DNA of 64,000 nucleotides. Source: Candidatus Nanoarchaeia archaeon. Lineage in GTDB: Archaea > Nanobdellota > Nanobdellia > Woesearchaeales > SKIA01. Position 1 is the stretch's first letter; every line of letters begins with the position of its first letter. Positions 10,032 to 63,695 of this stretch are shown here, in pieces. The stretch is from positions 62,001 through 126,000 of the forward strand of contig JANQNG010000059.1 of the NCBI GenBank assembly GCA_028279685.1, written 5' to 3'. A model generated the notes under the pieces. The model was not told the DNA's origin, searched no databases, and saw only the letters and a list, made by a program, of their open reading frames with translations. The translations under genes were made by a program, and so were the position numbers.

Positions 10032-10756
10032 TGAAACTTGTAGATTTAGGAGTTTTGATTATTTTAGTGTTAGCGTTTTCGTCACTTATTATTTTTACAG
10101 AGAGACCATCAGGAAATATTGTCGGCCATGCATCTATCCCCGTTCCTAATGGAATAGTATTAAGTGCAACAACGATTGAAGCAGGAACTGCTTCAATAGA
10201 TATAACTATGACAAATTTAGAAGATACTCCTTATGCATTATATAGATATATTTATGTGAATGATATCGAGCAAGCTGACAGAGTAAACAATGAGTTTACA
10301 GAGAGTACGGAGATGTATACGTTATTAGTTGATCCTCAATACCCTTCTGCTACAGGAACATTATCGACGGCAGACCTTCTACCTGGTGTTTATGAAGTTG
10401 GATTAACTGCGTATCATTATGATTTTGATCTTGGAGATTGGTTTATTGATGACTATTATTATTATTTTGCAGAACTTACGGTCTCAGCTTCTTGTGTTGA
10501 CGGAGAAACAAGATGTGTGGATGGAAACACAAAAGAAGAATGTATAGGAGAAGTCTGGACTTTTTCAGAAGCATGCGAGTTTGCTTGCATAGACAACGAC
10601 TGTACTGTTTGTGATCCAGATACTGAGTCTTGTGTTGATGAACAAACATATGGTTATTGTTCATCTGAAGGACAATTGACAACATCGGCTTGTTGGTTCT
10701 GCTATGAAAGAAACGCAGATGAAATATACTGTATCGGAGAACCGCCTACGCCATGA
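10031..10756 (+). CDS. Secreted protein with beta-sandwich and Cys-rich module
   Basis: An N-terminal TM/signal segment (LGVLIILVLAFSSLIIF) is followed by a domain of about 120 residues (GIVLSATTIEAGTASIDITM...YDFDLGDWFIDDYYYYFAELTV). This domain is clearly homologous to residues about 1040-1155 of the next gene product. A Cys-rich tail (CVDGETRCVDGNTKEEC...) matches that protein's Cys repeats. It may share partners with, or be derived from, the giant protein. Its stop overlaps the next start (ATGA). Confidence 0.7.
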   Translation: MKLVDLGVLIILVLAFSSLIIFTERPSGNIVGHASIPVPNGIVLSATTIEAGTASIDITMTNLEDTPYALYRYIYVNDIEQADRVNNEFTESTEMYTLLVDPQYPSATGTLSTADLLPGVYEVGLTAYHYDFDLGDWFIDDYYYYFAELTVSASCVDGETRCVDGNTKEECIGEVWTFSEACEFACIDNDCTVCDPDTESCVDEQTYGYCSSEGQLTTSACWFCYERNADEIYCIGEPPTP

Positions 10757-13700
10757 AAAAGGAAGTGATGATGAAAATTTGGCATTATGGTGTTATAATC
10801 GCTGGCGCTCTTGCTATATTGCTTTTTTTATTTTCTTCACCATATGTCAAAGAAGAGGACGTGAACATATTTGGGAAAGCAATAACATACGATCAAGTAG
10901 CTTATTGCGGTGATCATTCCTGTATCACACCTGAAGATATGCTTAATTGTCCATTAGATTGTTCAATGCCAACACATACATATTTTGTTTCTACTGACGG
11001 GAATGACTTTGGGCAAGGAACGATTGGTGATCCGTTTGAAACTGTAGAGGCAGCTAGAAGTGCAATAAGAGTTCTAAAAGATAACAATCAATTTACAGGG
11101 GCTATAGATGTTTTTCTTAGAGAAGGAGTATATGAAATTAGCGAACCAATAACCTTGGATCAACGAGATTCTGGAGAACCTGGAAAACCAATAATATACA
11201 GATCATATCCTGGAGAAAAAGCTACGATTATTGGTTCTGAAGATTTATCAGTGAGTTGGCAGCAATACAGCGGCAATATTTATATGGCAGATGTTTCCGG
11301 GTGGATTGCTTTGCATGGAGATTTTAATACGCTTTTTATCGATGGTGAGCGAGCAATCAGAGCAAGAACTCCTAACATTGGAGAGTATTTTCAAATTGAC
11401 AGAGGTTCAAGTTGTGTAAGTCCTGCTGATGTTAATCCAAATTTTGCTTTCTATTTTTTTGAAGGAGATCTTAATCCTTCTTGGTCGAATTTACAAGATA
11501 TTGAATTAATTGCGTATAAAGCGTGGCAGGCTTCCAGACATAAAATAGAGAGCATTGATGGTGTGAATAATATTGTATACCATGTTGGTAAAACGAAAAG
11601 GGGATATTGTGAATGGGCAGGAGGCCGTTATTACGTCGAGAATTTGCTTGAGGGACTTGACAGTGAAGGAGAATGGTACTTGGATAAGAATACTCAAATA
11701 GTTTATTATTGGCCGAAAGCAGGAGAAGATATCCATTCTTTAAGATTTCAAATTCCTAAACCTATATCTCTTTTGGAAGTTGAAGCTCAGCAGGAAGTGC
11801 TGGATCTTGGTAGACAATTTACCATATCTCATTGGGTAAAAACAACTGATGATTCTAATTTAATATATACTGTGGGAAACGCTTTTTCAGCGAAAGGAAT
11901 TAGATTCGGGATTAGTGAAGGGCAAGTTGCATTCCAGATTGGAGATGGTTATTCTGATTTGCAAGGAAATAGTTATACGTCCAGGAGTACTTGTTCAGGA
12001 GGAGCAGGTCCTCTAAATGATGGCAATTGGCATTTAATTTCTGCTGTATTTGATTTGGATGCACAAACAGCGAAATGTTTTGTTGATGATTATTTTCAAA
12101 GCGCGACATTTGAATTACCAAGACAATATGATGATATTGGAGATACTTTTCTTGAAATAGGAAATCCTCCTCACGGTTATGAAGGTGGTGTTGATGGTAT
12201 ATTTGCTAATCAATTTGTTGGAGAAATAGATGATTTGAGAATATACAGTACCACATTAAACGCTTTACAAATCAGCAACATTTACAACAAAAATCCTTCG
12301 TCAGATAATCTTTTGTTTCATCTGGATTTTGAAAACTTGAATAACGTAGTTGATAATTCAGTTAACGGCTATGAGATGGTGGCATATGGTGATAGAATAC
12401 AGTCTCAAGGACCGACTTCTCTCGGAAATGCGTTCGTGGTGAACTCCGAAAATGATAATATAGTTATAGAACCAGAATGGATACATAATGTTCATGTGGC
12501 TGGAATCTCGTTTGGACAAACAGAGTGGACTATGCCAGAAGGAGGATATCGAGGTTCGCAGGCAGGGAGTCGAGTTCATGATCCTCCTGCCGTAAAGTAT
12601 TCATTTACAAAAGATTCATCATTTATTAACAACGATATATCACTGACTGGGGCGTGGGCTTTCAAAGGAGATCATAACCATGATCTTCTTATCTCAAGAA
12701 ATTATTTTAATCATATTGGAGGGGGAGGAATAAGACTTGGAGGAGAAGCAACAATTGATGAGGAAATGTCTCATGATTGCAGCATGATACATAATAGAAT
12801 TACCAATCTTGGAGAAGTATACAAAGACATTGCGGTGATCTGGACTGGTCTAAACTATAACATGGATGCGTCTCATAACTACGCAGCGTATTGTTCTAAC
12901 GCAGGAATTTCAATGGGATGGAAATGGGATCCTTATCCTTCAGCTTGCAGAGACAATACCATGAGCTATAATCACATACATCATATTAAAATGGAACTGC
13001 AAGATGGGGGGCCATTATATACTCTTGGAGCACAGCCTGGAACAGTCATCGAAAATAATCTTGTGCATGATTGTACGTTCACCAGCCATCATACTGAGTT
13101 TGTTGGTCTTAAGGGAATTTATCTTGATCAAGGTTCAAAAGATATTCTTGTGCAGAACAATGTTGTATATAATATAGGAGGGGGTGCTCTTAATGTTAAT
13201 GGTGCTTATGATAATATTATAACGAATAATATTTTTGTTGATGGCGGACTTGTTAATGCAGATTTTGGTGTCAATGCAGAGATGTATTTTCCAGGGCATG
13301 GTGATGGAGGATATCCTGGTGGAAATGAGTTAACAAGGAACATATTTTACTTTGGGCCTGATAATGATTATTACACATTAGGTAAACCTCAACAATATTA
13401 TCCTAGTCAGAGTGGATTTATGTATTATGTCTACAATAACGATGATCTCAAAGATATTATGGGGCCTGGTAATTATCTCACAAGCATCAGCAATTCAGAT
13501 TATAATTTATTTTATTCTGTTCATAATGCATATAGATTTAGAGTGGTTGAACCTATACTTGATTTCGGAGTATGGCAATCACAGTCATCATTTGATCTTA
13601 ATTCTCTTACTGATCAAGATCCTCTTTTTGTAGATTATGAAGGTAGAGATTTTACACTGCAGCCGTCAAGCCCTGCATTTGATTTAGGATTCCAGCAGAT

Positions 13701-16170
13701 TGATATATCGGAAGTTGGTCCTTTAGGTGTTGAATGTTGGGATGACGATGATTGCGTAGCAAGATGTGTCCAAAGAATTTGTTCAAACGTAGAAGAGTGT
13801 GGAAATAATATTTGTGAAGGAAACGAAGTGCAAACATGCCCTGAAGATTGTCCTCTAGAGCCTATTGTTGTTCCAGGACAACTTTCATTGAGTTCTTCAA
13901 TAATAGAGGAAGGAACACCATCTGTTAATGTAAACATGCCTGCTCAGGCAGGAGAATTCATAGGATTATACAGGAATATCTATCTCGATGATGTTGTTGT
14001 TGCAGGAGCAATGACTAATGATTTTATCGGCATGTCAGATACCTACACAGTTCTCGTCGAGGGAGCATATGGTGATGCAGTAGGAATATTAGATACATTA
14101 AATCTCGCCCCTGGAAGCTATGAAGTTGGAGTGTTAGCATATAGATATGATTTTGATATTGGAGATTGGGACAGAACACAATATTTTTACTATCCTACAA
14201 CGCTTGAAGTAACAGAAGATTTGGTTTGCACACCAAATACATTGAGATGTAATGGTCTTGATGTTGAACAATGTACGCCAGAAGGAGATGCATGGGCTTT
14301 TGTTGAAACGTGTGATACTGCTTGTAGTGGTGGTGTTTGTGAGGATTCTGTTTGTGAGGAGAATGAGCTTCGTTGTAATGGTCTTGATGTTGAGCGATGT
14401 CAGAACGATAATTGGGTATTTATAGAGACATGCGTCACTGCTTGTAGTGGTGGTGTTTGTGAGGATTCTGTTTGTGAGGAGAATGAGCTTCGTTGTAATG
14501 GTCTTGATGTTGAACAATGTCAAAATAATGATTGGGCTTTTGTTGAAACGTGTGATACTGGTTGTGATCAAGGGATATGTATAACTTGTGCAACTCCAAC
14601 TCAATGCGGCACTGGTGAATTTGCAGATATGCTTTACAAATGCGAAGGAGATACTTATGTTGAGTATGATTGGTGTTTGAGTGGATGTGTAGATGGTGCT
14701 TGCAATCCAAATTGTGTTGAAGGAGAATTCTTATGCCATTATCAAGAGGATTATAATGAAGGAGGAACACTAAGACTCAGATGCGATGAGATTGAAGCAT
14801 GGAATTACTATGATCAATGTGCTAGTGGGTGCAACACAGCAAACAATCAATGTAATAGCCCTTGTTCAGAAGGAAGCTATAGATGCAGTCCTAGTGATGA
14901 AAATTTTAGACAAGTATGTAACGGAGATGGTGGCTATGTTGATCTTGATTATTGTCCTAATGGTTGTGTTTCAGGATCATGTGTAGGATCGTGTATTCAA
15001 GGAGAAAGAAGTTGCGTAGGCTCAAATGTTTTGGAATGCAATGCAATGAACGCGTATGATTTAGTAGAAGAATGTGAATATGCTTGTGTTGATGGAGCTT
15101 GCACTGGAATATGTGTTCCTGGACGACAAACATGCAATGGAGATGTTCTTATGACTTGTGATAGTAGTGGACAGTATGTTGAAGAACAAGATTGTGCAAA
15201 TACAGGTCAGATTTGCAAAAATCTTCAATGTGTAGATCAATATTATGATCCTCAAATAGATACTTCAAGAGATGGAGAAACACAAGTGCTGACAATGGAA
15301 GTGGATGATTCTGTTTATGGATTGATTGACAGACATTATAGAATACATCTTCCTTCAGGGTATACTTCTGCACAAAATTATCCATTGTATTTTGCATTCC
15401 ATGGTAGAAGCGGAACTGCGACAAACACAGAAGAATATACTGGAATGTCTGATGAAGCTGATGAAAAAGGATTTATTGTGGTGTATCCTCAAGCATTAGG
15501 GGATAGTGGTGGTGGAGAAACATATATACTTCCAGGAATGGAAGGATTGCGTCAGGGAGGAAGTATACTCAGCACAGGATGGAATATGGAAATAAGTAGT
15601 CTAGTTACATATTATGGAGGATATTTCAAAATTGATGATAAGCAATTTATGATAGAACTATTCGAGAAATTAGTTGATGAATTATCTATTGATACGAGTA
15701 ATGTAGTGATGTCAGGCGTCTCAAATGGAGGAGGATTTGTACAATATTTGTCAGCCGTAGATAAAACAGGAGAATTTTCACATGTGTTCCATCAAGGATT
15801 TAGGGGGGCAGGATTATGTTCAACAGGAATATGGGGTATTAGACAACCAGAAATTCTTCAACAGCTTCCAATTATGATTTTTAGAGGTAGTTGGGATCCA
15901 ATAACACCGTACCTTGGGGAATTGAATCAAAACGGAAAATACAGGCTTCCTGCAGAATTAATGATAGAAACATTAGCAGGAGTAAATGATTGTGATCCCG
16001 AGCCTGTGAGGGTATATAGATATATTCCTACTGATGATTTGCATGTGTTCCGATGGGAATATCAGAATTGTGTGGAGCCAATTGAGTTCTATAAAATAAT
16101 ACATGGAAGGCATAAATGGTATGATTATTGGCAGACTGATTTGTTCTTGGATTTTGTAGGGATTACTTAA
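10753..16170 (+). CDS. Giant modular secreted protein: parallel beta-helix, LamG, Cys-rich repeats, CE1-like esterase
   Basis: Product of 1805 residues with an N-terminal signal anchor. Order: CGDHSC...CPLDC motif (about 52-70). A right-handed beta-helix follows, like polysaccharide-active GH141-type proteins (YFVSTDGNDFGQGTIGDPF...), about 75-985, with a LamG-like domain inserted at about 340-515. Then CGNNIC...CPEDC (about 1016), a beta-sandwich (1040-1155) and Cys-rich repeats (1159-1500). Last is an alpha/beta-hydrolase like CE1 or PHB depolymerases (1503-1805). Its likely triad is Ser1657 (GVSNGG), Asp1715 (GSWDP) and His1784 or His1787. It probably binds and trims polysaccharide outside the cell. 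A later start at Met7 has a better ribosome-binding site. Confidence 0.85.
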   Translation: MKKEVMMKIWHYGVIIAGALAILLFLFSSPYVKEEDVNIFGKAITYDQVAYCGDHSCITPEDMLNCPLDCSMPTHTYFVSTDGNDFGQGTIGDPFETVEAARSAIRVLKDNNQFTGAIDVFLREGVYEISEPITLDQRDSGEPGKPIIYRSYPGEKATIIGSEDLSVSWQQYSGNIYMADVSGWIALHGDFNTLFIDGERAIRARTPNIGEYFQIDRGSSCVSPADVNPNFAFYFFEGDLNPSWSNLQDIELIAYKAWQASRHKIESIDGVNNIVYHVGKTKRGYCEWAGGRYYVENLLEGLDSEGEWYLDKNTQIVYYWPKAGEDIHSLRFQIPKPISLLEVEAQQEVLDLGRQFTISHWVKTTDDSNLIYTVGNAFSAKGIRFGISEGQVAFQIGDGYSDLQGNSYTSRSTCSGGAGPLNDGNWHLISAVFDLDAQTAKCFVDDYFQSATFELPRQYDDIGDTFLEIGNPPHGYEGGVDGIFANQFVGEIDDLRIYSTTLNALQISNIYNKNPSSDNLLFHLDFENLNNVVDNSVNGYEMVAYGDRIQSQGPTSLGNAFVVNSENDNIVIEPEWIHNVHVAGISFGQTEWTMPEGGYRGSQAGSRVHDPPAVKYSFTKDSSFINNDISLTGAWAFKGDHNHDLLISRNYFNHIGGGGIRLGGEATIDEEMSHDCSMIHNRITNLGEVYKDIAVIWTGLNYNMDASHNYAAYCSNAGISMGWKWDPYPSACRDNTMSYNHIHHIKMELQDGGPLYTLGAQPGTVIENNLVHDCTFTSHHTEFVGLKGIYLDQGSKDILVQNNVVYNIGGGALNVNGAYDNIITNNIFVDGGLVNADFGVNAEMYFPGHGDGGYPGGNELTRNIFYFGPDNDYYTLGKPQQYYPSQSGFMYYVYNNDDLKDIMGPGNYLTSISNSDYNLFYSVHNAYRFRVVEPILDFGVWQSQSSFDLNSLTDQDPLFVDYEGRDFTLQPSSPAFDLGFQQIDISEVGPLGVECWDDDDCVARCVQRICSNVEECGNNICEGNEVQTCPEDCPLEPIVVPGQLSLSSSIIEEGTPSVNVNMPAQAGEFIGLYRNIYLDDVVVAGAMTNDFIGMSDTYTVLVEGAYGDAVGILDTLNLAPGSYEVGVLAYRYDFDIGDWDRTQYFYYPTTLEVTEDLVCTPNTLRCNGLDVEQCTPEGDAWAFVETCDTACSGGVCEDSVCEENELRCNGLDVERCQNDNWVFIETCVTACSGGVCEDSVCEENELRCNGLDVEQCQNNDWAFVETCDTGCDQGICITCATPTQCGTGEFADMLYKCEGDTYVEYDWCLSGCVDGACNPNCVEGEFLCHYQEDYNEGGTLRLRCDEIEAWNYYDQCASGCNTANNQCNSPCSEGSYRCSPSDENFRQVCNGDGGYVDLDYCPNGCVSGSCVGSCIQGERSCVGSNVLECNAMNAYDLVEECEYACVDGACTGICVPGRQTCNGDVLMTCDSSGQYVEEQDCANTGQICKNLQCVDQYYDPQIDTSRDGETQVLTMEVDDSVYGLIDRHYRIHLPSGYTSAQNYPLYFAFHGRSGTATNTEEYTGMSDEADEKGFIVVYPQALGDSGGGETYILPGMEGLRQGGSILSTGWNMEISSLVTYYGGYFKIDDKQFMIELFEKLVDELSIDTSNVVMSGVSNGGGFVQYLSAVDKTGEFSHVFHQGFRGAGLCSTGIWGIRQPEILQQLPIMIFRGSWDPITPYLGELNQNGKYRLPAELMIETLAGVNDCDPEPVRVYRYIPTDDLHVFRWEYQNCVEPIEFYKIIHGRHKWYDYWQTDLFLDFVGIT
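14317..14560 (+). repeat. 120-bp tandem coding repeats in the Cys-rich region
   Basis: Two successive units of 120 bp (40 codons) share an identical stretch of about 75 bp (14317-14392 and 14437-14512). The codon for each CNGLDVE[QR]C module is the same base for base. A third partial copy (GGGCTTTTGTTGAAACGTG) lies 240 bp apart at 14294 and 14534. The other Cys modules in the protein are much more diverged, so this pair looks like recent expansion or gene conversion. Confidence 0.8.
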
Positions 16171-29695: not shown

Positions 29696-30517
29696 GTGTT
29701 CGCCATAAGTTTCATTAATACGATGGTCTCGATGTTTCCGAGGTTGAAACATCAGCTCCTCTCAGCACATATCAATCTTTCTCCTCGTCAATTTATTAAA
29801 AAATCGTTGAAGAATGCAGTGTTTGCTTCGTCGATGCTTTCTGCACTTGCTTTCATGATTATTGATAAAAACAACGGCCCTGTATTGGTCGTGCCGGTTA
29901 TTTTTCTTGGCATTTTTTTTGTTGGATTCTGGATAGGGATGCAGATGCCTAAAGTTAAAATGATGAGGAGAGGCAATACTATAGATCAAGATGTCTTGTT
30001 TGCGGGGAGATTTCTGTTAGTAAAACTCAATTCAGGGCAGCCGTTGCTGAATGCTATTGTTGATGCCTCAAGAAGCTATGGGGTGGGGGGGAAATTCTTC
30101 AAAGAAATTGTGAGCGATATTGAACTTGGAACACCACTTGAAGAGGCACTTACAAAATCAATGAATTACACGCCTTCGTATAAATTCAGAAAAATCCTTT
30201 TTCAGATAACAACAGCACTAAAAATTGGTATAGATGTTTCAGGTTCATTAGAGTCTGTGCTTGAGGAGATATCTAATCAGCAATTATTAGAAATCAAGAA
30301 ATATGGTAAACGATTGAACGGTATTACAATGTTTTATTTGCTTATGGCTGTTGTTTTTCCAAGTTTAGGAATGACTCTATTCATTGTTGTAGTTAGTCTT
30401 TTGACAACATCCAAACAAGGGTTTGGTATGTTCATTGCTGTTTTATTCTTTTTAGCGGTGCTCCAGTTCATGTTTATGACTATGTTTAGAAGTATACGAC
30501 CGAAGGTGAATATTTAG
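29696..30517 (+). CDS. Filament platform protein, first half (T2SSF/TadB-like)
   Basis: The product is 273 residues with two TM helices near residues 40-80, a cytoplasmic T2SSF-like helical domain (LNSGQPLLNAIVDASRSYG...GTPLEEALTKSM), and two C-terminal TM helices. The archaellum has one longer ArlJ; here the platform comes as two genes, as in Tad systems. The in-frame GTG at 29696 overlaps the ribosome-binding site AGGAGGTG. The real start may therefore lie downstream (ATG at 29723 or a non-standard codon at 29705). Confidence 0.82.
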   Translation: MFAISFINTMVSMFPRLKHQLLSAHINLSPRQFIKKSLKNAVFASSMLSALAFMIIDKNNGPVLVVPVIFLGIFFVGFWIGMQMPKVKMMRRGNTIDQDVLFAGRFLLVKLNSGQPLLNAIVDASRSYGVGGKFFKEIVSDIELGTPLEEALTKSMNYTPSYKFRKILFQITTALKIGIDVSGSLESVLEEISNQQLLEIKKYGKRLNGITMFYLLMAVVFPSLGMTLFIVVVSLLTTSKQGFGMFIAVLFFLAVLQFMFMTMFRSIRPKVNI

Positions 30518-30518
30518 A

Positions 30519-31550
30519 ATGGAAGGAAATGTACTTGAGAGATTTGGCAGAGCATTCATTCCACGGAAAATTAGGCCTGGTCTTAGAGCATATATACTCA
30601 AGACGGGGATGAATAAGGTACCTTATGCTTTTTTTGGGGCGCTCTTCCTCGTCTCTGCAGTTTTTGCTGTTATTATGTTTGTGCTCTATGTTAATCCTTT
30701 ATTTATTCAAGGGAAACATCCTCTTCTTGGTTTGTTGTTTTCTTTTATTGGGTGGATTATTCTTCAAGGAGGATTTATTGCGGGAATTATTTTATTCATT
30801 GTTTCAGCATTAAGTGTCAAGGTCTATCGTAGAACAAAAGAGATGGAAAATGCACTTCCTGATTATCTCAGTCTTGTAATTACTAATCTTAGGGGAGGTA
30901 TGAGTTTCGAAAAATCGCTTTGGGGAGCTATCAAACCTGAATTTGGAGTACTTTCCGAAGAAATTACGATTGTCAGCAAGAAAGTAATGACTGGTAATGA
31001 CGCTACAGATGCGCTTGTTGAATTTTCCATGAAATATGAAAGTCCAATATTAAGGAGAGCAATGGATCTAATTATTGGCGAACTCAGAACAGGAGGTCGT
31101 GTTGCTGAGGTGATTGAGAAAATTGTCGATGATATGGTGAAAAGCAGAGAGTTGCATGCAGAGATGTCTGCATCAGTGATTACCTACATGATTTTTATTG
31201 GAGTCATTGTTATGGCTATAGCACCAGTCTTATTTGCTCTGGCATTCCATCTCTTAAACATTGTGCTTGATTTTGCTTCTTCTCTTGGGAGTCAGCTCAA
31301 CAATACCGCTATGGGTATTTCAATCAATATATCAAGAGATGCGGTTAATACAAACTATTTCAAATGGTTTTCGATGCTTGCGCTTGGCGTGATTGCTGTG
31401 TTTTCGTCGATGATTGTTTCTATCATCGAGAAGGGCAATATCAAAGAAGGATTGAAATATATCCCTATGTTCTTAATTTCCTCTGAACTTGTTTATATTA
31501 TAGTGATGTTTGCGCTAGGGTCTATCCTTAGCGGGGTTATCAAAGTCTAG
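30519..31550 (+). CDS. Filament platform protein, second half (T2SSF/TadC-like)
   Basis: The product is 343 residues. Two TM helices (about 35-60, 70-95) are followed by a T2SSF domain (LPDYLSLVITNLRGGMSFEKSLW...LRTGGRVAEVIEKIVDDMVKSRELHAEMSA), then three or four TM helices. It is a paralogue of the preceding gene and begins one base after that stop. Together they should form the membrane platform driven by the ATPase. Its stop overlaps the convergent Bud32 gene by 4 bp. Confidence 0.85.
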   Translation: MEGNVLERFGRAFIPRKIRPGLRAYILKTGMNKVPYAFFGALFLVSAVFAVIMFVLYVNPLFIQGKHPLLGLLFSFIGWIILQGGFIAGIILFIVSALSVKVYRRTKEMENALPDYLSLVITNLRGGMSFEKSLWGAIKPEFGVLSEEITIVSKKVMTGNDATDALVEFSMKYESPILRRAMDLIIGELRTGGRVAEVIEKIVDDMVKSRELHAEMSASVITYMIFIGVIVMAIAPVLFALAFHLLNIVLDFASSLGSQLNNTAMGISINISRDAVNTNYFKWFSMLALGVIAVFSSMIVSIIEKGNIKEGLKYIPMFLISSELVYIIVMFALGSILSGVIKV

Positions 31551-33634: not shown

Positions 33635-36852
<3,218 letters not shown>

Positions 36853-60348: not shown

Positions 60349-60430
60349 GCTTCCATGGCTAAACCCTAACGGTTTAGAATCCGTTGGACTATTCGACATG
60401 CGTCGAATAGGCCGGTTTTGTGTGGATGCA
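60349..60430 (+). other. tRNA-sized structured segment with partial tRNA-Asn 5' end
   Basis: It begins GCTTCCATGGCT, close to the 5' end of tRNA-Asn 88 bp downstream (GCTTCCGTGGCT). Its end GGATGC (60424-60429), within TGGATGC, pairs with the start at six of seven positions. Inside are CTAAACC-CTAAC-GGTTTAG and CTATTCGAC-ATGC-GTCGAATAG. There is no recognisable T-loop, so it is probably not a working tRNA. It could be a decayed duplicate or a small structured RNA. Confidence 0.4.
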
Positions 60431-60436
60431 AAATTT

Positions 60437-60528
60437 GCTTCCGTGGCTTAGTCTGGCTAGAGCGGGTGGCTGTTATCTCTTATGAGAAAGAGACCACCAG
60501 GTCCCCGGTTCGAATCCGGGCGGAAGCG
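60437..60528 (+). tRNA. tRNA-Asn(GTT) with 17-base anticodon-loop intron
   Basis: Acceptor GCTTCCG/CGGAAGC pairs fully; D-stem GCTT/GAGC; anticodon stem GGTGG/CCACC; T-arm CCCGG-TTCGAAT-CCGGG; discriminator G73, as expected for Asn. The anticodon loop is CTGTTA plus A once a 17-base intron (TCTCTTATGAGAAAGAG) after position 37 is removed, giving anticodon GTT. This is the usual archaeal 37/38 intron site. No CCA is encoded. Confidence 0.88.
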
Positions 60529-60641
60529 TTGCTTTTGATCGGAACAGGAGAAATCCGTGCGCTTGAGTCCGAAGGACGAAACGCACATTTGGATGATAAC
60601 CTTTTCTAAAGGTTATGTTCTTGTATCCGGGCGGAAGCGTT
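60514..60641 (+). repeat. Duplicated tRNA-Asn 3' end bracketing a 94-bp hairpin cassette
   Basis: ATCCGGGCGGAAGCGTT occurs exactly at 60514-60530 (the end of tRNA-Asn, from the T-loop on, plus two bases) and again at 60625-60641. The 94 bp between contain a 30-base double-stem hairpin (60557-60586), shared in form with the tRNA-Val cassette, and ATAACCTT-TTCT-AAGGTTAT. No ORF fits inside. Confidence 0.85.
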
Positions 60642-60670
60642 TATCATAAGCGTGGCTTATGGTATGGAAT

Positions 60671-60845
60671 GACCTCGTAGCTTAGCCTGGGAAATGGTTA
60701 CGCTCATTTCATACGCAAAGGGCGGCATGCGCTCCTTCGGAGCTTAGCCGACCGCGTTGAAGCGTATTTGGGCATTAGAGTGCTCGACTGATATGCTTAC
60801 GCAATAGACATCGAGTGGTCCCGAGTTCAAATCTCGGCGAGGTCA
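60671..60845 (+). tRNA. tRNA-Ile(GAT) with anticodon-loop intron and large D-loop insertion
   Basis: Acceptor GACCTCG/CGAGGTC pairs fully; anticodon stem CTCGA/TCGAG; T-arm CCGAG-TTCAAAT-CTCGG; discriminator A73. Removing 16 bases (TGCTTACGCAATAGAC) at 37/38 gives loop CTGATAA, anticodon GAT (Ile). The D-loop (AGCCTGG...TTA) is split by about 80 bases (about 60691-60772) that fold into GAAATG/CATTTC and ATACGC/GCGTAT stems, the latter enclosing GCTCC-TTC-GGAGC. This must be spliced out unless the gene is dead. Confidence 0.8.
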
Positions 60846-60961
60846 TCTTTTCTTTTCTTAATTGTGTTTTAGAAGGATTTGAACTCTCCGAGTTCACCCT
60901 CAAAGCCTTCGGCTTTAGGGCCATTCGAGCTTCGCTCTCATCGGAATCTCGGCGAGGTCAT
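60830..60961 (+). repeat. Duplicated tRNA-Ile 3' end bracketing a hairpin cassette
   Basis: AATCTCGGCGAGGTCAT occurs exactly at 60830-60846 (end of tRNA-Ile) and 60945-60961. The second copy has its T-stem start too (CCGAGTTCA, 60888-60896), but split from the rest by 48 bases holding AAAGCC-TTC-GGCTTT and GAGC-TTC-GCTC. So the downstream copy is a tRNA 3' fragment with hairpins inserted in its T-loop. Confidence 0.8.
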
Positions 60962-63499: not shown

Positions 63500-63615
63500 G
63501 ATGAGGCTGTTTGGAGTCAAACCAGCGATAAACTGCGCGCAGTTTATAATCATGCATGCGTTTCGCACTTCGTGCTCAAGCGCATGGATGTGATGAGGCT
63601 GGCCGGAGTCGAACC
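63500..63615 (-). repeat. Diverged copy of the tRNA-Val 3' end with hairpin cassette
   Basis: Plus-strand 63500-63523 (GATGAGGCTGTTTGGAGTCA, then AACC) matches the end of tRNA-Val at 63592-63615 with four changes in 24. Between them (minus-strand order) lie the covarying hairpin at 63556-63585 and a perfect 20-base palindrome ATAAACTGCGCGCAGTTTAT (63528-63547). The layout equals that behind tRNA-Asn and tRNA-Ile. Confidence 0.75.
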
Positions 63616-63695
63616 GGCGACCTTCGGTGAGTGAGACCAACGTCATCTATGGATCTAGCCGTTATTGGCTTGATAAGCCACTAGACCACAGCCTC
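63594..63695 (-). tRNA. tRNA-Val(CAC) with 28-base D-loop intron
   Basis: Acceptor GAGGCTG/CAGCCTC; T-arm GCCGG-TTCGACT-CCGGC; discriminator A73. The D-arm reads GTCT-AGTGGCTTA-TGAC once 28 bases (CAAGCCAATAACGG..., to ATAGAT) are removed. The anticodon stem TTGGT/ACCGA holds loop CTCACTC, anticodon CAC (Val). Base 37 is U instead of the usual purine, which lowers confidence in the identity. The mature length would be 74. Confidence 0.65.

Follow-up and report, generated by a model that had tools for sequence, protein, structure and literature searches.

Why would two neighbouring archaeal tRNA genes each be followed by a second copy of their own 3' end? The question is raised by a 64,000-nt stretch of DNA (contig C24:62001-126000; the whole of this stretch is called the window below) from a draft archaeal metagenome-assembled genome of 1.90 Mb in 80 contigs, 91.9% complete and 4.5% contaminated, of which 90.7% was read. 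The genome is judged to be archaeal from its tRNA introns and gene content, and may belong to a DPANN/Woesearchaeales-like order. Near the end of the window, ATCCGGGCGGAAGCGTT stands at 60514-60530 in the tRNA-Asn gene and again at 60625-60641, and AATCTCGGCGAGGTCAT stands at 60830-60846 in the tRNA-Ile gene and again at 60945-60961. Both are exact 17-bp repeats, with spacings of 111 bp and 115 bp; the copies start in the T-loop, at nucleotide 58 or 59, and extend 1-2 bases past the tRNA end. ARAGORN and Rfam tRNA identified both as real tRNA genes, and the repeats, T-loop starts and spacings are as the original prediction described them. That prediction also placed a hairpin cassette between the repeats and interpreted each unit as a very small integrative element dependent on a tyrosine integrase encoded elsewhere. 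We arrived at another answer: with a probability of about 0.5, the feature represents lineage-specific, non-coding palindromic cassettes of mobile DNA, which insert at the ends of tRNA genes and duplicate the tRNA end.

We compared the last 16 bases of each tRNA (nucleotides 58-73) with its own 250 bp downstream, at 38 tRNA loci of the source genome (some isotype names are those of ARAGORN and may be wrong), and used 1406 cross-locus comparisons as the control. A near-perfect own-end copy was found at 15 of the 38 loci, versus 0.64% of the cross-locus comparisons (binomial P about 1e-21), which excludes chance. A longer query added copies at Phe (21/24) and Trp (20/24), and four decayed-looking copies were observed at Ala-CGC, Ser, a second Gln-like locus and one Leu. 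Copies with a hairpin cassette follow nearly half of the tRNA genes in the source genome. They mostly lie 70-110 bp downstream (+212 at Ala-GGC) and are 16-26 bases long, or 52 where the copy includes an intron; at the Arg locus L327, the copy spans the 26-nt T-loop intron of the tRNA, giving about 52 identical bases. The original prediction had itself named two outcomes that would refute it: that most tRNAs lack copies, or that the copies are ordinary tandem tRNA duplications with full-length intermediates. The former is partly the case, in that somewhat more than half of the loci in the source genome, and most tRNAs of its relatives, have no copy. As to the latter, no full-length or near full-length tandem intermediates were seen beside the 38 loci, only end fragments.

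The spacers between tRNA and copy were found to form three structured non-coding families, A, B and C, with compensatory base changes. The hairpins foreseen between the repeats are thus present and structured, although they belong to several families, not one. Family A follows Gln, a second Gln-like tRNA (Pro according to ARAGORN), Cys, Ser, Ile, two Glu, Gly and Arg, and folds into a four-way junction; in the helix that closes it, an inverted T-arm is paired with the T-arm half of the distal copy. Covariation in the family A alignment is strong: 91.5% of cells are paired, 10 pairs show double changes, and on three of five measures none of the shuffles reached the observed value. The inverted T-arm fits its own tRNA better than the other host tRNAs (permutation p 0.00025). 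Family B, found at Phe, Trp, Ala-GGC, Asn, His and one Arg, consists of a hairpin whose CUUGA/GAAA internal loop hardly varies, together with another hairpin that is AT-rich. In family C, hosted by Ser, Ala-CGC, Thr, Lys, Leu and others, a GGGCTACTCGAC hairpin is followed by an ATAAGG...CCTTAT hairpin. The helices of both B and C covary.

The covariance models were seeded from tRNA-adjacent examples, and the search itself covered the whole source genome. At E<=0.001 it returned 9 matches to family A, 6 to family B and 13 to family C; a further, partial match to family C lies opposite a known copy, on the other strand. Each of these adjoins a tRNA gene. Further, perfect hairpins with a stem of at least 9 bp are enriched about tenfold near tRNAs: of 128 in all, 23 fall in the 1.7% of the sequence that is within 300 bp of a tRNA. 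The cassettes are arranged in several ways: Gly and Glu2 carry extra cassette material and a third end, tandem units of 5'-end copy, hairpin and inverted copy lie upstream of Thr tRNAs, inverted family C cassettes stand at Gly-GCC and Ala-GGC, and two C cassettes have nested within them a hairpin resembling the third helix of family A. In an Rfam search, the cassettes matched no family, and credible scores were obtained for tRNA alone. We abandoned the idea that family B (CTTGAGTCCGAAGGACGAAAC) is hammerhead-like, because its core falls short of the hammerhead consensus in length and the flanks pair together. Separately, an intergenic region at C28:53099-53129, away from any tRNA, contains a C-type hairpin (GGACTACTCAAC...GTTGAGTAGACC) that stands bare and scored weakly.

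Within the window, the tRNA-Asn(GTT) gene occupies 60437..60528 on the plus strand, with a 17-nt anticodon-loop intron (53.8 bits against Rfam tRNA, and also called by ARAGORN). Its family B cassette at 60554..60622 (+), supported by nhmmer, covariance model R1 (73.7 bits) and covariation, contains the CUUGA/GAAA internal-loop hairpin and then a second hairpin, GATAACC...GGTTAT; the distal copy at 60625..60641 (+) comprises nucleotides 59-73 plus 2. On the same strand, tRNA-Ile(GAT) at 60671..60845 has a D-loop intron and an anticodon-loop intron (ARAGORN with introns allowed; partial Rfam match). It is followed at 60875..60949 (+) by a family A cassette with a four-way junction (covariance model R3, 78.8 bits; folds and covariation), the final 5 bases of which are the start of the distal copy at 60945..60961 (+). 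The inverted copy of the tRNA-Ile T-arm (GGATTTGAACTC), whose match is the host-specific one noted above, opens this cassette at 60875..60886 (+) and is followed by TCC and then by the direct 5' half of the T-arm at 60890-60895. A third case, missing from the original prediction, is tRNA-Trp(CCA), which carries an intron and lies on the minus strand at 63594..63695 (C24:125594-125695; ARAGORN with introns allowed). Its family B cassette at 63522..63588 (-) scored 92.7 bits with model R1 and was also found by nhmmer, and the distal copy of its T-arm and 3' end at 63500..63523 (-) is 20/24 identical. On the 5' side of tRNA-Asn, an inverted repeat at 60386..60413 forms a C-type hairpin (GGACTATTCGAC...GTCGAATAGGCC), weakly like family C (nhmmer E 0.11, no strand assigned).

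How far the families extend was assessed in 40 genomes, including the source genome, the others being of the same family or order with one genome per species; the nearest relatives belong to another genus. Family B is present in genomes G018, G008 and G007 and weakly in locus L041 of G023; the tRNAs of the first three were read by eye, ARAGORN at default settings having missed them. Covariance-model matches to family A occur in G022, G019, G035 and G032 and weakly in G015, and those to family C are weak throughout. None of the three families was found in the three genomes of the same family. Of 371 genomes of the phylum, 4 contain the core motif of family B; all 4 belong to the same order, and a reversed control pattern gave 0 matches. 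Two pattern matches in a virus collection look like chance, as neither stretch has a tRNA, one is apparently coding, and the outer stem is missing or very short.

At those loci of the relatives that the analysis covered, 5'-end copies ending in the D-loop region were observed in seven genomes and 3'-end copies starting in the T-loop in seven; some of the other rows flagged reflect neighbouring tRNAs that are alike in sequence. The layout is patchy and at times tandem, and partial copies with unrelated spacers occur in many relatives. In G018, an antisense B cassette lies 5' of Glu and Ser-like tRNAs, with a tRNA 5'-end copy further outward, while in G008 a B cassette lies antisense within an anticodon intron. 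In G007, the copy beside tRNA-Met includes a T-loop intron in which the loop is altered and the stems, which form the splice motif, are kept. Apart from these, three loci of G018 (L038, L052 and L062) have the first hairpin of family B alone, with no recognised tRNA-end copy, followed by a different repeat, CTCCGAAGCTAC...AAAATGTAG; 29 bases are identical to the tRNA-Asn cassette of the window.

As to how such loci could arise, we favour insertion of mobile cassettes. The cassettes, about 70-110 bp with trailer, have as their outer bound a duplicate of the terminal module of the tRNA, running from the T-loop to the 3' end or, in relatives, from the 5' end to the D-loop. Insertion would be driven in trans: the tRNA gene would be cut at its terminus and in the T-loop (or D-loop), the folded cassette would be inserted, and gap filling would leave the tRNA whole on one side, with the displaced copy of its end on the other. 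Tandem arrays could result from several such events. The reading is supported by the copies at 15 of 38 loci, the restriction of the families to tRNAs, the tandem, inverted and nested layouts, the patchy occurrence in relatives and the antisense B cassette on the 5' side. Strand behaviour bears on it as well. The tRNAs of the source genome, used as the control, fold better in sense than in antisense, by a mean of 5.2 kcal/mol and in 33 of 38 cases. This bias is absent from families A and B, as expected of DNA palindromes, but present in family C. On the whole we favour a cassette that moves or duplicates at the DNA level.

Several observations weigh against mobile cassettes. We infer the mobility, since no empty site was seen in a set with one genome per species, and likewise the cut geometry and the existence of a trans-acting enzyme. 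No excision product or transposase was seen either, and neither cas1 (PF01867) nor a Y1 transposase (PF01797) was found in the 92% complete draft, where absence is not proof. The copies end almost precisely where the mature tRNA does, and simple duplication of a target leaves this unexplained. Because the inverted T-arm of family A is tRNA-specific, some of the cassette would need to be produced or tailored at every site. In family C, folding is strongly strand-biased, also at shared positions and in the inverted copy, and the G007 copy, with its kept intron stems and changed loop, hints at selection on the copy.

These last points lead to the main and serious rival, which we nevertheless regard as unlikely: a role at the RNA level. 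Here cassette and copy would be transcribed with the tRNA, the copy would serve as an alternative partner for the 5' acceptor strand, and selection would keep nucleotides 58-73; in family A, the inverted T-arm could pair with either T-arm, which would let the precursor alternate between two 3' ends as a means of folding, processing or regulation. The covarying helices of all three families, copies that finish at the mature tRNA end, the preserved splice-motif stems in G007 and the strand bias of family C would all suit such a module. In extended transcripts, pairing of the 5' acceptor with the distal copy was predicted in 8 of 12, but the margin is just 2.5-5.5 kcal/mol in a model that ignores tRNA tertiary structure. 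A count by eye of compensatory changes between copy and 5' acceptor gave a mixed result, with about 9 kept and 4 broken. An RNA role sits poorly with the lack of strand bias in A and B although tRNAs have one, with cassettes that are inverted or lie antisense on the 5' side, and with the more than half of tRNAs that have no cassette. Splicing at the T-loop of the second copy was considered and dropped, since inspection revealed no bulge-helix-bulge at the copy boundary; in families A and B, nothing complementary to T-loop bases 54-57 precedes the second copy, whereas true T-loop introns elsewhere in the source genome do have it.

Two further explanations operate on DNA, and we consider both of them improbable. 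Ordinary rearrangement at tRNA genes, by fold-back replication and tandem duplication with later decay, might produce the partial end copies, inverted copies and hairpins with no mobile cassette: copy, hairpin and inverted copy do resemble fold-back products, especially upstream of Thr tRNAs, and the partial copies with unrelated spacers in many relatives point the same way. Such rearrangement would not readily place the same families, with conserved unpaired motifs such as CUUGA/GAAA, at unrelated tRNAs, nor make family B reappear in distant genomes, and it lacks the full-length tandem intermediates. The most doubtful account is that of miniature elements moved by a tyrosine integrase in trans, with crossover in the T-loop and the distal copy as the displaced attR end. 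It can draw on the layout, which is the signature of an integrative island, on known T-loop crossover sites (PMC4383910) and on the presence of XerA-like recombinases. However, one family occurs at many tRNAs, each requiring its own matching attachment sequence, a circle moved between tRNAs would give chimeric acceptor stems, and the units are far under the 2 kb of Islander (PMC4383910). Moreover, the tyrosine recombinases found are an archaeal XerA, an XerA-like protein below cutoff, another whose gene neighbours a parA-like gene, and a fragment that lies at the end of a contig, none recognised as a dedicated tRNA-targeting integrase. About 17 different tRNAs have their own copy sequence, and an integrase element must carry the matching tRNA fragment, so dependence on an integrase is not supported; the host-matched inverted T-arm of family A and the 5'-end copies in relatives also argue against it. 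What holds of the proposed integrative unit is its anatomy, namely non-coding units of about 70-110 bp between a tRNA and its displaced end copy, in families that recur at many tRNAs.

Repetitive extragenic palindromic and bacterial interspersed mosaic elements (REP/BIME), together with double-hairpin elements, are short, gene-free mobile palindromes with conserved internal loops and nested insertion. The cassettes share these gene-free hairpins, conserved internal loops and nesting, but are confined to tRNA ends and bracketed by tRNA-end copies, and no Y1 transposase was found. The casposase of A. boonei recognises TCAAATC, taken here to be the T-loop, and the 14-15 bp that it duplicates begin about 8 bp beyond the motif (PMC6614799). 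Casposons resemble the cassettes in insertion at tRNA 3' ends and target duplication, and repeated casposon events would yield arrays; unlike theirs, the copies here begin in the T-loop and are 16-26 bp long (52 bp where an intron is included), with no cas1 found. Several beta-lactamase-fold proteins of the source genome are RNase Z candidates.

Tyrosine-integrase islands are marked by an intact tRNA plus a displaced end fragment; Islander sought those above 2 kb, listed T-loop/junction crossover sites, and found 5' fragments in 159 of 3919 islands (PMC4383910). Our loci share the intact tRNA, the displaced fragment in the same orientation with the insert between, the T-loop breakpoint and the 5' fragments. 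They differ in cassettes of about 100 bp, too short for an ORF and so without genes or integrase, in having one family at many tRNAs, and in the host-matched inverted T-arm and tandem arrays. In Caldiarchaeum, disruption of tRNA-Thr was attributed to a mobile element with a recombinase (PMC3293823). There, too, an intron-bearing archaeal tRNA stands beside its own end fragment and mobile-element insertion is the explanation, but that element is 1.8 kb, carries the recombinase gene and affects one tRNA (PMC3293823), whereas here gene-free cassettes follow nearly half of the tRNAs. The copy breakpoints in D- and T-loops are also intron sites in the source genome, as with archaeal bulge-helix-bulge introns; in contrast to these, the cassettes are placed outside a tRNA that is itself intact, and the boundary of the copy showed no recognisable bulge-helix-bulge.

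No paper describing such cassettes was found in the literature searched, which is not proof of absence. It is a tentative idea, with the odds against it, that they constitute a new class of element: gene-free palindromic cassettes recognised as folded DNA, which would insert at D- or T-loop positions, copy the tRNA end each time and build arrays, the same process possibly seeding D- and T-loop introns. tRNA genes are classic landing sites of mobile DNA, and the D- and T-loop introns of archaea are puzzling; the many parallel, tRNA-marked cases offer test beds for tRNA-end duplication, the origin of tRNA introns and the spread in trans of gene-free elements.

Intron sequences are themselves shared between tRNAs in this genome. 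The D-loop intron of tRNA-Ile (window 60691-60774) and that of the Arg-like tRNA of L327 (C24 near 61000) have a common sequence, GGTTACGCTC...GCGGC...GGAGCTTAGCC, to which the intron of Lys-CTT is a partial match. A D-loop intron sequence common to different tRNAs suggests that tRNA introns also spread between tRNAs here. Among the four Leu(CAA)-like loci of the source genome, the one on the minus strand of C79, near 30400-30620, carries in its T-loop region hairpins that recall helices three and four of family A; its intact acceptor strand is found only past these hairpins, and the first 3' end looks degenerate.

Elsewhere in the window, 34843-36852 encodes GyrB, whose best named matches are mostly bacterial, at about 60% identity, the others being distant gyrases; on this comparison the gene was probably acquired horizontally. 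At 10753-16170, the window encodes a predicted secreted protein of 1805 aa with repeated cysteine-rich segments.
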